A DNA stretch of 64,000 bases from Pleurocapsa sp. PCC 7319 (lineage in GTDB: Bacteria > Cyanobacteriota > Cyanobacteriia > Cyanobacteriales > Xenococcaceae), in the NCBI RefSeq assembly GCF_000332195.1, contig NZ_KB235922.1, positions 5,987,322-6,051,321 of the forward strand, given 5' to 3'. The notes below the pieces were generated by a model. The model was given only the letters and a program-made list of their open reading frames with translations, searched no databases and had not been told where the DNA came from. Positions 37,000 through 41,343 of the stretch are shown piece by piece. The translations under genes were made by a program, and so were the position numbers. Positions within the stretch are counted from its first letter, which is position 1, and each line of letters starts with the position of its first letter.

Positions 37000-37598
37000 A
37001 ATAACTATAGATGCCCTACGTAGTTTTAAGAAGATTTTGCTGCAATATGCCAAGGTAGCTGAAGTATCTTCCATTGCATTAATTGAAGTCGATTCCGATT
37101 TAGGTGCAGGCAAGCGAGGCGCATCAAAAAGGAATTGAGTTTCTGAAAGAAGTGGCGATCGCTAAACAAACTGCCCGAATGCGAGCCGAAAACGGTATTG
37201 TTAGTTTAGATAACCGCAGCGTACAAAACGAGAATCATGCCCTTAAAGGCTCAAAACTGTATACTCACGCTAAATATATCGATGCTATTTACAAAGTATT
37301 TGAGCGCACTACCAATATAGTGGCATCTACCCTAAAAGATGGCTTGTTTCCCTTGGTGCTAGGAGGAGATCATTCAACAGCTGCGGGGACAATCGCTGGA
37401 ATCAAAAAAGCATTTCCCGAGCGCCGTCTCGGTGTGGTTTGGATTGATGCTCATGCCGATATTCATTCCCCATATACGACCCCGTCAGGGAATATGCATG
37501 GTATGCCCTTGGCTGTGGCTACAGATAACTATAATTTAGCCAATCAAATTAACCATCTCGATGCAGAAACTTCTAAACTCTGGGAAATGAATAATTGA
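36971..37598 (+). pseudogene. Arginase/ureohydrolase family remnant, frameshifted and 3'-truncated
   Basis: The frame from ATG 36971 gives KILLQYAKVAEVSSIALIEV, DSDLGAGKRGAS and then stops at 37138. An extra A in the run near 37126-37130 explains the shift: the next frame continues with GIEFLKEVAIAKQTARMRAE and on through LVLGGDHSTAAGTIAGIKKA, and WIDAHADIHSPYTTPSGNMH. These GGDHS and DAHxD motifs carry manganese ligands of ureohydrolases (arginase, agmatinase, formimidoylglutamase). It ends after LWEMNN, before the C-terminal SxDxDxxDP motif, so roughly half the enzyme is missing. Non-functional. Confidence 0.86.
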
Positions 37599-37756: not shown

Positions 37757-38356
37757 TTAAATCACTTTTAAAAAATCTTTTTTAATTACAGCAGGGCTTT
37801 CGGTGAAGGCACGATTGATAAATTCAAGAAAATTATCTGCTTCAATTTTGGGCAATAATCGACTGAATCTAATTTCCTGATAATCGTTATAGTTTAACAA
37901 GTAAAAAGTAATTTTATTCTTTTTCCAGATCCACAGTTCGGGAATACCAATATTTTTATAACTTGCTTTCAGCTCGTCAATATCGCCACTGCTAAAAATT
38001 ACTTCAACTACTAAATCTGGCTGAGACTTTCTGGTTTGAAAACTATATGCTATGTCTGGTTCTCTTCCCGCTTGACCTGTTAATTCTAGTCTTGTTTGTC
38101 GAAAAGGGAATTCTAAAAGCTCATATTTATCGCAATAAGCAAGAATCAGACGATCAATTACAGAGGCAATGATTTCATGGTTTAATCCTGGTGACACGAT
38201 AAAAATTTCTCCCTGAAAATATGAGACTCGATACCCTGGATATTCTTCAGAATTAAAATTTTGATAATCTTGCCATGTTGCTCCAGTAATCGTTAATACC
38301 CTATCTTCTCGAAGGAATTTTTCACGATTAATTGGTAAATCTGGAGATATTAACAT
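37757..38356 (-). CDS. Uma2-family putative restriction endonuclease-like protein (DUF820)
   Basis: 199 residues. The PD-(D/E)XK-like core is seen in REPDIAYSFQ (D) and QPDLVVEVIFSSGD followed by the lysine-containing helix SYKNIGIPELWIW. This is the Uma2 family, which is highly amplified in cyanobacteria and has nuclease-like folds but little experimental characterisation. Often associated with mobile or accessory DNA, consistent with the surrounding pseudogenes and MITE copies. Confidence 0.85.
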   Translation of the reverse strand: MLISPDLPINREKFLREDRVLTITGATWQDYQNFNSEEYPGYRVSYFQGEIFIVSPGLNHEIIASVIDRLILAYCDKYELLEFPFRQTRLELTGQAGREPDIAYSFQTRKSQPDLVVEVIFSSGDIDELKASYKNIGIPELWIWKKNKITFYLLNYNDYQEIRFSRLLPKIEADNFLEFINRAFTESPAVIKKDFLKVI

Positions 38357-38384
38357 TTATTTCGATTTTAAATTTAACTGTAAC

Positions 38385-38490
38385 TATAGCAATACGAACT
38401 TTTATTAGGACACTCATTACTCGTTACTCGTTACTCGTTACTTACGAGCAATCAAATAAACTTGTCCTAACGTAACTTTGTACGGCTATA
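38385..38490. mobile_element. MITE-like element, copy 1 (106 bp)
   Basis: Begins TATAGCAATACGAAC and ends ACTTTGTACGGCTATA. The ends are imperfect terminal inverted repeats (20 of 28 positions match, with perfect TATAGC and TTAGGACA blocks). The interior has three ACTCGTT heptamers and a small palindrome. A second copy lies at 41460-41558 in the same orientation, 7 bases shorter because it has one heptamer fewer. TA-flanked ends suggest mobilisation by an IS630/Tc1-mariner-type transposase, which is inference; none is encoded here. Confidence 0.82.
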
Positions 38491-38524
38491 TTAGTTATTT
38501 TACTGCTCAAAAATCTAAATTGAA

Positions 38525-40378
38525 TTAATTTATTGGCTCTAAAAGTCGACACTTCTGAGCTGGTTCACCCTGTATAAATAACTGTTGACTATCGTAGTAA
38601 CTAACGTTTTTTTGATTATCTGGTAGAAAAGGTCGCAGATCGGCGATCGCCTTAAAGGCAGCAATTACGTGAGAATCGTTAAAACATCGCGAACCATTGA
38701 GATACTCTAATCTTCCTTCGCGCCCGCCAAGATAGTTAGGAGCTAAATTCATCAACATGAGTTCTGCCGCTGCCCAGGAATCTGCCGAACCATTGGCAAA
38801 AGGAATATAACCGTTATCTTTCAAGATTTGGGCAACGCTGAGTAATTCTGCCCAATTCTGAGGAATTTCTAAGTTTAATTGCTCAAATAAATCAAGATTG
38901 TAATAGATGCCATGAGATACAGCCATCACTGGCACACCGTAAATATTTCCTTGTTCGGTTGTCCAAGGCTCAAGAACCTCTGAAGTGTAGTTCTCCTTTA
39001 ATCCTGGTAAATCAGTCAATATGGCTAATTCTCTAGTGTCAAATAGTCTTTGAGAAAAAGAAAAAGAACGTAAATAAAATATATCTGGAGCTGTACTAGC
39101 TTTGAGTCGATCTTCTAGAACTTTATTGTATAGTTTGGTTTGAACAGGCAAAAATTTGATATTTATATTGGGATACCTAGCCTTAAAAGCTGCTAATATC
39201 TTACTCATTTGTAATTCATCATCGGTACGCCATGAACCAAAAGTCAGAGTTACCCGATCTTGGTTACGAGCCTCATCTACTAAATCAGCATTAGATACCA
39301 GAGGTTTTGAATTAAGATTCATTAGGTTTTGATTTGCTTCTTTAGTAAACAGATTTAAGTTGCCATACTGATAGAAAAAAGCGATCGCACTAATTAACAA
39401 AATAGTGGGAAAAACGATTCTACCAATGATTATTAAACGATAAATTGCCGCTTGATTTTCTCTGATTCCTGGTTTATTACCAATGACTACTAGTAAAAGC
39501 TCTAAGCCGATTAACCCATAGATAATATAAAAACCATAGTCGAGGGCTACGACATAGCCGATTCCTTCGGGTAAACCCTCTAAAAGACTAAGATGAAAAA
39601 AGACGATCTCCAAAAGGGTTCCACTTACTGCCTCAACAGAAATTTGGTCGAACGGTAAAAACAGTAGTAAATACGATAAAACCACAAAAAATAACAGAGG
39701 CAGCAGATTTTTGATCGCAAAACTGACCCGATCTCGCTTAATGTCAATCACTGCATTAAATCGAGAATATTTTAAATCAGAATCAGAATCAAAAAATTTG
39801 GGATTGCCTAAAGTTGAATCATTCCGAAGAATATCTTGAAAAAATCTGACTTCTTTGACTTCCCAATCGCTAATAGTCTCAAATACATTTGATTCCTGCC
39901 AATTGGATATTACTTCTTGGGCGATAGTATCCCGCATCCCCACCACATCAACTACATAGATCAAATTATCTCGTGTCAGGTTGGCGTGGCGAAATCGAAC
40001 TGCTAATCTTTGGAGATCGAAGGGATAATCATCAAAGCGAAATTTCTCTTTAAAATCGGCTTTGACTCGATATACTCGATAAGTTATGCCGTCAACTACT
40101 TTTTCATCAATGGGATCGTCTAATTCCAGTTTATCCCCTGAATCCATGCGATCGGTTCCATAGTTAGTGAATTCGATATTATCTGCATCTATATCCCCTC
40201 GAAACCGAAACCATAAATAAAAATCAACTAAATAGGATGAATTTTTTTCATCCAAATTTCTGATTTCATTAATATCTATCCCGGTATAGACGATATTAGT
40301 CTTGTGCATATACCTGCCATCTACCAGGAGCATTCTGCCAGAGTCCAACTCTTGCTTGAGATTACTCAAAACGCCCAC
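38525..40378 (-). CDS. Pentameric ligand-gated ion channel fused to a periplasmic solute-binding domain (gene probably damaged)
   Basis: 617 residues as an open frame from GTG 40378. Residues 30-215 are the beta-sandwich ligand domain with FRFDDYPFDLQRL (113-125), the pro-loop signature of prokaryotic Cys-loop relatives. Four membrane helices follow: M1 219-242, M2 about 246-265, M3 274-299, M4 313-337. Residues 374-617 are an ABC-type sugar-binding-protein lobe (VTLTFGSWRTDDELQMSKIL, TAPDIFYLRSFSFSQ, GIYYNLDLFEQL). M4 ends outside the membrane, so the binding domain would be periplasmic. Upstream, ATG 40538 in another frame gives a membrane anchor (SVIAFLLSLILILSF), implying a 1-base frameshift near 40430-40445. 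The C-terminus stops abruptly just before MITE copy 1, where the rest of the binding protein is expected. Confidence 0.85.
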   Translation of the reverse strand: MGVLSNLKQELDSGRMLLVDGRYMHKTNIVYTGIDINEIRNLDEKNSSYLVDFYLWFRFRGDIDADNIEFTNYGTDRMDSGDKLELDDPIDEKVVDGITYRVYRVKADFKEKFRFDDYPFDLQRLAVRFRHANLTRDNLIYVVDVVGMRDTIAQEVISNWQESNVFETISDWEVKEVRFFQDILRNDSTLGNPKFFDSDSDLKYSRFNAVIDIKRDRVSFAIKNLLPLLFFVVLSYLLLFLPFDQISVEAVSGTLLEIVFFHLSLLEGLPEGIGYVVALDYGFYIIYGLIGLELLLVVIGNKPGIRENQAAIYRLIIIGRIVFPTILLISAIAFFYQYGNLNLFTKEANQNLMNLNSKPLVSNADLVDEARNQDRVTLTFGSWRTDDELQMSKILAAFKARYPNINIKFLPVQTKLYNKVLEDRLKASTAPDIFYLRSFSFSQRLFDTRELAILTDLPGLKENYTSEVLEPWTTEQGNIYGVPVMAVSHGIYYNLDLFEQLNLEIPQNWAELLSVAQILKDNGYIPFANGSADSWAAAELMLMNLAPNYLGGREGRLEYLNGSRCFNDSHVIAAFKAIADLRPFLPDNQKNVSYYDSQQLFIQGEPAQKCRLLEPIN

Positions 40379-40538
40379 ATCATTTGCTAGTTGAAGCTGA
40401 ATAAAAGCGGAAATAAATTTTTGCTGCTCGAAAACTAAGAATCAATATCAGAGAGAGCAAAAAAGCAATTACACTTCTAGTTACCTTTCTACTCCCAAAT
40501 ATCATTGTCGGGTTATATTTTTTAGAAGCAATTTTCAT

Positions 40539-40854
40539 GTGGGGACAAAATCAAAAATTTCTTTGCCGGTGATTAGGAGGATGTCTAATATGTCCCCATA
40601 GATGCTTTATTGCTATTTAATCTGAATGAAATCACGGGCATCATAGCTGAATTGTTTAGGTATTAATATTAGTAAAATACCTGAAATGTAATTTAAGTTG
40701 TAATTGAAATTGATAGTTTATTAGAATATTTTGATAAAAATTGTTCTCGTTTCTTTCTGTTTTTAATGTTGATAAATGACATAAAAAGAGTTAATAAAGC
40801 TGAGAACTGACATACGCTCTCAACTTTAATTAATATTGATAGCATTGATAGCAT
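40539..40854. other. AT-rich intergenic region upstream of the channel gene
   Basis: No ORF or strong hairpin seen. It separates the putative original start of the channel gene (40538) from the 3' end of the TerB-like gene, both on the minus strand. Confidence 0.5.
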
Positions 40855-41343
40855 TTAGATAGGAGTTCCCGAAGGATACATGAAAGCTAAACGTTTCTCG
40901 CGAAGTTTAGCTTCTTCAAGATAGATAGATTCAATCTCATTGACTACACGTTCAGGAATGCCCAATTTAGCTGCCATTTTGATCACAGTAGCTTGTTCTG
41001 GTTCACTATATTCACCATCAGCACCGCACGCTTGAATAGCATCGTAAATGAGATAACGCCGAGAACTGTCCGAGACTTTGTTTTGAGAAACAATTTGGTC
41101 GATATCTTCAGATGCTGCATAGGATTTTAACTCCTCGATTAGAGAATCTGATGCTCCATAAGCAGCAGCATATCCCACTACCCACTCCCTTTCTTGGGAG
41201 GTTAGTTGGTCATCGCCGTTGACACAAATCAAAAGCGACTTAAAATAACCATCGAATGATTGAGCATTAGGCAATTCTTTAAAAGTGAATTTTTCTCTAA
41301 ATAGCCAAGATAAGCCTTCCTTTGGAGCTACAGTTGTAGTCAT
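40855..41343 (-). CDS. TerB-like domain protein (intact paralogue)
   Basis: 162 residues, helical, with two repeats of the TerB-type acidic pattern: NGDDQLTSQEREWVVGYAAA and GADGEYSEPEQATVIKMAAK followed by LGI. The TerB fold is linked to tellurite and stress responses in other bacteria, with metal-binding acidic residues; function here is unknown. A decayed duplicate is at 34106-34535, and the two share their N-terminal and C-terminal sequence and the region just upstream of the start, including a CTCCTT (SD) block. It lies between the channel gene and MITE copy 2. Confidence 0.75.
   Translation of the reverse strand: MTTTVAPKEGLSWLFREKFTFKELPNAQSFDGYFKSLLICVNGDDQLTSQEREWVVGYAAAYGASDSLIEELKSYAASEDIDQIVSQNKVSDSSRRYLIYDAIQACGADGEYSEPEQATVIKMAAKLGIPERVVNEIESIYLEEAKLREKRLAFMYPSGTPI

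Follow-up and report, generated by a model that had tools for sequence, protein, structure and literature searches.

The question raised by this locus is whether a pentameric ligand-gated ion channel (pLGIC) that continues, behind its last membrane helix, into a sugar-binding domain is a working receptor. The frame in question lies in the window, that is, the whole stretch of 64,000 nucleotides of Pleurocapsa sp. PCC 7319 analyzed here. The reading favored by our analysis, with a probability of roughly 0.6, is that the locus carries, in damaged form, a three-part receptor-channel, the intact version being a pentameric channel with two nutrient sensors that gate it or tune it. The parts of the locus, all on the minus strand, are as follows.

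38525..40378, minus strand: open frame of 617 amino acids with a GTG start, containing the pLGIC core and a partial sugar-binding domain (SBP) (reading of the open frame)
40380..40538, minus strand: remnant 5' end with an ATG at 40538, a signal- or anchor-like hydrophobic segment and a stop at 40382-40380, out of the channel frame
40420..40440, minus strand: first junction (approximate), with a PBP-I domain of about 370 residues absent and a change of frame
39725..40375, minus strand: pLGIC-type extracellular ligand-binding domain, with the pro-loop FDDYPFD at residues 115-121 (profile, Foldseek)
39371..39715, minus strand: membrane helices M1-M4, at about 39715-39650, 39643-39575, 39556-39479 and 39442-39371 (hydropathy, profile match to the GLIC membrane region)
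39260..39370, minus strand: linker behind M4
38552..39259, minus strand: ABC-type sugar-binding domain (SBP_bac_1), truncated, corresponding to positions 1-232 in the 399-position model of the fused family
38549..38566, minus strand: second junction (approximate), with about 155 SBP residues absent and the frame kept, followed by the family tail EPAQKC

The pro-loop lies where the earlier note on this DNA had located it, and hydropathy gives the four membrane segments described there (residues ~225-243, 246-266, 282-300 and 315-333 of the window protein). The sugar-binding lobe that the note had read at residues 374-617 is present, with a Pfam match to SBP_bac_1 at residues 391-607 (E 1.4e-19), but it is partial, covering model positions 10-231 of 307, so that the window copy lacks a full SBP_bac_1 domain; nor does it carry Peripla_BP_6 on the N side of the channel. 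The upper bound of 40538 given for the gene has to be abandoned, since it is the ATG of the signal-like frame, which terminates at the 40382-40380 stop and is not the channel frame. Among PDB sequences, the C-terminal part of the window protein matches sugar-binding proteins (NagB1, 7ehp, at 1.9e-19) and its middle part the membrane regions of DeCLIC (6v4a) and GABA-A receptors (E ~1e-4). The channel models of Pfam gave no match on the window protein searched singly, which was resolved with a family profile.

This core profile was built from 26 family members, the window being among the rows. It matches GLIC chains with E ~1e-21 over the whole sequence and, separately, the GLIC ligand-binding domain (chain residues 18-147, domain E ~1e-5) and membrane region (domain E ~3e-14). 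At E<=0.1, Neur_chan_LBD of Pfam is found in 9 of the 26 core members and Neur_chan_memb in 5, and the cut-off of the latter is passed by a single one (L147) of seven whole proteins scanned. The prolines of the pro-loop and of M1 (P126 and P231 of the first row) are invariant in all 26 rows; the M1 proline is described as the most conserved helix position in the text of PMC4795631 consulted here. The sequence comparison thus assigns the core to the pLGICs, with a GLIC- or Cys-loop-like ligand-binding domain, M1-M4 and the conserved prolines all present.

Structure prediction gave poor models, both for the core (AF2, mean pLDDT 49.7, pTM 0.36) and for the full-length Thioploca protein L004 (mean pLDDT 44.5). 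The 50 matches listed by Foldseek for the core model are all pLGICs (GLIC, ELIC, their chimera and DeCLIC); the alignments span 302-350 columns, the query TM-scores are 0.38-0.46 and the rmsd is 8.3-13.0. Due to the poor models and low TM-scores, contacts between domains are unreadable, and nothing but the rank order of the Foldseek matches to the core is relied on. GLIC and ELIC, which hold the top fold ranks, share the ligand-binding domain and M1-M4 with the core, whereas their matching solved chains (~290-320 residues) have no accessory domain. The position aligned with GLIC E222, which we take to be -2', is acidic in 10 of the 26 rows (including L003, L004, L027 and L071) and N, Q or H in another 10, the window having Q. 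The charge of the inner pore is mixed across the rows, and cation conduction would be a guess from sequence.

A sugar-binding domain behind M4 is found in intact genes of other species, the recurrence by which the earlier note had proposed to check its idea. Eleven full-length frames of 1171-1225 residues, in seven genomes, encode PBP-I (LivJ-like), pLGIC and SBP_bac_1 in this order, a count that leaves out unfetched long frames such as G422:C308 (1267 residues). The hosts are Parabeggiatoa, Thioploca, three further genomes of that order and two other cyanobacteria. These genes are L003 (Candidatus Parabeggiatoa, 1188 aa, 51% identity to the window frame over residues 6-607), L004 (Thioploca, 1171 aa, 50% over residues 4-607), L150 and L148 (both G954), two in L146 plus L147 (all G969), L149 (G974), the tandem pair L027 and L071 (G028), and L028 (G005). 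In each of them the core is flanked by matches to Peripla_BP_6 and SBP_bac_1 that pass the Pfam cut-offs; Peripla_BP_6 is always on the N side, and SBP_bac_1 is always complete, reaching model position 305-307 of 307. The gap between M4 and the SBP is 25-37 residues long and mostly polar.

The profile of the SBP leads to sugar-binding proteins (2hq0, 7.7e-31; 6pql; NagB1, 7ehp), which are the closest solved relatives of the C-terminal domain and differ in being stand-alone transporter binding proteins, while the domain here is fused. The PBP-I profile leads to branched-chain amino-acid-type binding proteins (4gnr, 2.2e-38). A chain of pLGIC and C-terminal sugar-binding domain, as proposed in the note, is real in intact genes elsewhere, but the window gene as it stands does not support it; moreover, the picture given in the note was incomplete, having missed that all 11 intact genes place a second binding domain (PBP-I) ahead of the channel.

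Other relatives are shortened or broken. In L111 (G971) the contig ends within the SBP, L042/L075 is broken by stops in the core and in the SBP, and behind the second gene of G005 the SBP is reduced to a fragment (L074, 11836-12303), the C-terminal domain having decayed there as well. Most other full-core frames consist of PBP-I and the core only, with 750-825 residues in cyanobacteria and 698-855 in the fetched loci. One of them, L005 (uncultured Pleurocapsa, 763 aa), is the nearest relative of the window core (77-78%), and its genome is the only one with a core match among 12 other genomes of the window's genus.

The core-profile search found matches in 44 of 388 genomes from the window's order, in 18 of 386 from its phylum, in 14 of 274 from the class to which the L003 genome belongs, in 30 of 42 from the order of the same genome and in 31 of 146 from the order of the L006 genome; these sets overlap, and domains were read in fetched loci only. 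Four genomes of Parabeggiatoa, Thioploca and relatives (G388, G389, G954 and G969) have 12-16 core-profile matches each, where one gene may span two rows. This group has a large repertoire of channel cores.

N-terminal fusions of PBP-I to pLGICs (Magnetospirillum, Bradyrhizobium) and stand-alone PBP-II genes in their neighborhood are described by Tasneem et al. (PMC549065). As far as that description goes, the N-terminal PBP-I, the ligand-binding domain and the four membrane helices are as in the genes studied here, but PBP-II is encoded by a separate neighboring gene, while here it is C-terminal; a plain PBP-I-pLGIC fusion would have no further domain behind M4, whereas an SBP follows it in 11 of 11 of our full-length genes. 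DeCLIC (6v4a/7q3g), among the best PDB pLGIC matches of the window protein, also has an extra periplasmic domain, but that domain is N-terminal, two-lobed and calcium-related, and is not a periplasmic binding protein according to the consulted text of PMC12664993; in their consulted parts, the DeCLIC papers (PMC12664993, PMC9897478) deal with this N-terminal domain. Jaiteh et al. (PMC4795631) noted sequence after M4 in some genes, discarded the termini and, in the text consulted, named domain architecture as future work. No description of a C-terminal PBP-II fusion to a pLGIC was found in a literature search outside subscription journals, preprints, figures and supplements.

A hydrophobic N-terminal segment precedes PBP-I in all five full proteins examined (of the 11). 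With the ligand-binding domain outside and four helices returning the chain to the outside, the SBP is predicted to lie in the periplasm, in agreement with what the earlier note had expected of a C-terminal binding protein. Exactly two cysteines, one of them within an AQxC tail, are present in 12 of the 13 fused SBPs (the window included), the remaining one, in L111, being cut by the contig end and having one cysteine. Among 24 other SBP rows taken as a control, the AQxC tail occurs in none; 13 have one cysteine near the start, five have no cysteine, and one has two, elsewhere. The conserved pair suggests an oxidizing compartment, with a putative disulfide.

By sequence, the intact chain comprises an N-terminal anchor or signal segment, PBP-I (LivJ-like, Peripla_BP_6), the pLGIC core, the linker of 25-37 residues and PBP-II (SBP_bac_1). 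The predicted topology would put both binding domains in the periplasm. A pentamer would have five of each, with PBP-I forming a ring over the ligand-binding domain and the SBPs attached by their linkers where M4 ends on the outside. The pore might then open more or less readily when the SBP closes on a sugar and PBP-I on an amino acid, the cell reading the two nutrients as ion flux. We infer gating by the SBP and retained ligand binding by the end domains; that closing of the two domains alters pore opening, so that two nutrients are read, is a tentative proposal, with the odds leaning slightly against it.

The role of bacterial pLGICs is largely open, and fusion in a single chain links the channel to sugar-type and amino-acid-type binders far more firmly than gene neighborhood does, which makes binding assays with the end domains a route to the ligands. 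The M4 end of the subunit is thought to modulate gating, and a sensor at this end would sit on just that part. The pair of end domains parallels the PBP-I/PBP-II make-up of glutamate receptors. As presented in the consulted text of PMC549065, ionotropic glutamate receptors also combine these two sensor superfamilies in one channel chain, with PBP-I ahead of PBP-II as here, but their pore is unrelated and is inserted inside PBP-II, while here PBP-II comes after a complete pLGIC. A bolder idea, which we consider rather less probable than its negation, is that two Venus-flytrap sensors from separate superfamilies, the amino-acid-type PBP-I at the top and the M4-tethered sugar-type PBP-II, jointly gate the pentameric Cys-loop-type pore, forming a bacterial two-nutrient coincidence detector that re-creates the glutamate-receptor sensor set on an unrelated channel, as part of a toolkit that includes the same module of PBP-I and ligand-binding domain on MscS pores.

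Such a module, PBP-I with a pLGIC-type ligand-binding domain, is indeed seen on the MscS pore, MS_channel_2nd being found in all 11 proteins scanned, and in 8 of these 11 fusions a cyclic-nucleotide-binding domain stands behind the pore. The loci are L006 (70-3087 and 4702-8163), L030 (100-3159), L034 (217-3261), L041, L047, L051, L052, L053, L142 and L143; L047 and the second gene of L006 look like the same gene. No description of this fusion of PBP-I, ligand-binding domain and MscS pore was found in the literature search.

SBP_bac_1 proteins are generally known to serve ABC transporters, and the SBP might accordingly hand sugar over to an ABC transporter or concentrate it locally, the channel being a mere membrane anchor with no gating. 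This alternative to the gated receptor seems unlikely. It would be consistent with the length of the linker (25-37 residues) and with the stand-alone PBP-II genes beside bacterial pLGICs, for which a role as ligand concentrators is proposed in the consulted text of Tasneem et al. (PMC549065), but the Pfam scan of 10 ORFs neighboring three-part genes found no ABC-transporter subunit (the families being WD40, Uma2, porin, HSDR, TPR, ArgJ, PBP_like_2, WD40, RecD-like and nuclease).

Also against a mere anchor, L151 (in G1021) has a binding protein of a second, unrelated family behind M4. This frame, at 323-3616 of L151 on the minus strand, has 1098 residues up to the contig end, which truncates it on the N side, and consists of a pLGIC core, then cadherin repeats, then a sugar-type Peripla_BP_4 domain. 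It is the sole match spanning both parts among the matches listed for 116 genomes (up to six candidates per genome), long frames in G1084 and G1038 matching the Peripla_BP_4 part alone. As a single gene, it hints that there is a use for sensors at this end of the channel.

No conserved neighborhood hinting at a ligand, Uma2 apart, was seen at the inspected loci, where neighbors other than the 10 scanned ORFs were only glanced at. In the window (37757-38356, minus) as in the Parabeggiatoa locus L003 (8693-9262, plus), the channel gene is followed on its own strand by a gene of the Uma2 family, perhaps by chance. Near the G005 genes, the stand-alone gene for a PBP_like_2 protein lies on the opposite strand.

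As to the origin of the C-terminal domain, the 13 fused SBPs form one clade (support 100/99, present in 99% of 200 bootstrap trees) relative to 24 other SBP rows, 21 of them cyanobacterial, all drawn from the matches of this analysis and some on very long branches, so a closer stand-alone SBP may exist outside this comparison. An earlier tree with six fused rows gave 98/99. When the SBP profile was run on 243 genomes of the order, the fused domains (n=4) scored 377-705 bits, the G005 fragment 109 and stand-alone SBPs no more than 118, a gap that is partly built in, as the four fused domains belong to the profile. In the core tree (41 rows), the label for presence of an SBP needs five changes, at least three of them forced by well-supported branches. 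In particular, the third G969 gene (in L146) has no SBP and is placed inside a clade of SBP-bearing genes, its absence being best read as a loss.

Since many relatives carry only PBP-I and the pLGIC, a single gain of the SBP followed by several losses is the probable history; the domain is missing or broken in the third L146 gene, the second G005 gene, L042 and the window. Its absence from most relatives together with these repeated losses indicates that it is dispensable for the core function. That the SBP joined the channel several times independently is improbable: the changes forced in the core tree would allow it, but could also be one gain and two losses, and the single clade of fused SBPs (100/99) with common cysteines and tail motif argues against it.

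The damage to the window copy was delimited by tblastn with four relatives against window 38000-41000. Strong homology runs, in one frame, from 40435 to 38558 only, with the tail EPAQKC at 38566-38549, and channel-frame homology to the relatives begins at 40432-40435. Residues ~31-402 of L005 and ~1022-1176 of L003 have no counterpart in the window, and the remnant signal segment shows a weak 13-residue match (E 1.5) to residues 18-30 of L005. Elsewhere in the genome there is no close copy of the missing PBP-I part (8 matches, the best with 27% identity) and, at E<=0.001, no match to the missing SBP part; the core-profile search gives the window copy as the single match of the channel family in this genome.

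Still, the window core agrees with the family in every one of the 46 columns on which 23 or more of the 25 other rows concur. Its dN to L005 is 0.16 over the core, while dS is saturated over the core (1.8 in the membrane part), so that dN alone is usable for selection. Given the 46 near-invariant positions kept and this dN, the core was probably constrained until a short time ago and the damage is probably recent. In M2, the window has a Glu at a position that is A, G, S or T in all 25 other rows, which fits relaxed constraint. The locus is most likely a recently decaying gene, and its product most likely makes no working channel, because the PBP-I domain, the in-frame export segment and part of the SBP have been lost; the earlier view of the window gene as a working fusion is not supported, given the same three losses.

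Two other accounts of the window copy are each very improbable. The first is that the gene is not decaying and has evolved into a shorter channel, whose translation either begins at the GTG or is joined to the signal segment through a frameshift. The 617 stop-free codons, the retention of all 46 near-invariant channel positions and an SBP deletion that preserved the frame and both cysteines speak for it; yet a product from the GTG has no export segment ahead of the ligand-binding domain, the signal frame ends at the 40382-40380 stop, about 155 SBP residues are gone, and M2 carries Glu. The second is that errors in sequencing or assembly account for the breaks, or just for the frame change, and that the gene of the strain is intact. 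The frame change does sit at a short T run, but hundreds of bases are gone at two places, and neither part was found elsewhere in an assembly rated 99.99% complete.

Finally, a chance open frame is ruled out by 617 codons without a stop (probability ~3e-17, assuming a 6% stop rate) and by homology throughout, and the joining of two separate genes by a deletion is excluded by the same order in intact genes of other species.

Close to the damaged channel gene, an Arginase-family ORF of 164 aa at window 37104-37598 (plus strand) matches model positions 66-149 of 280 and is probably another truncated gene near the channel remnant.
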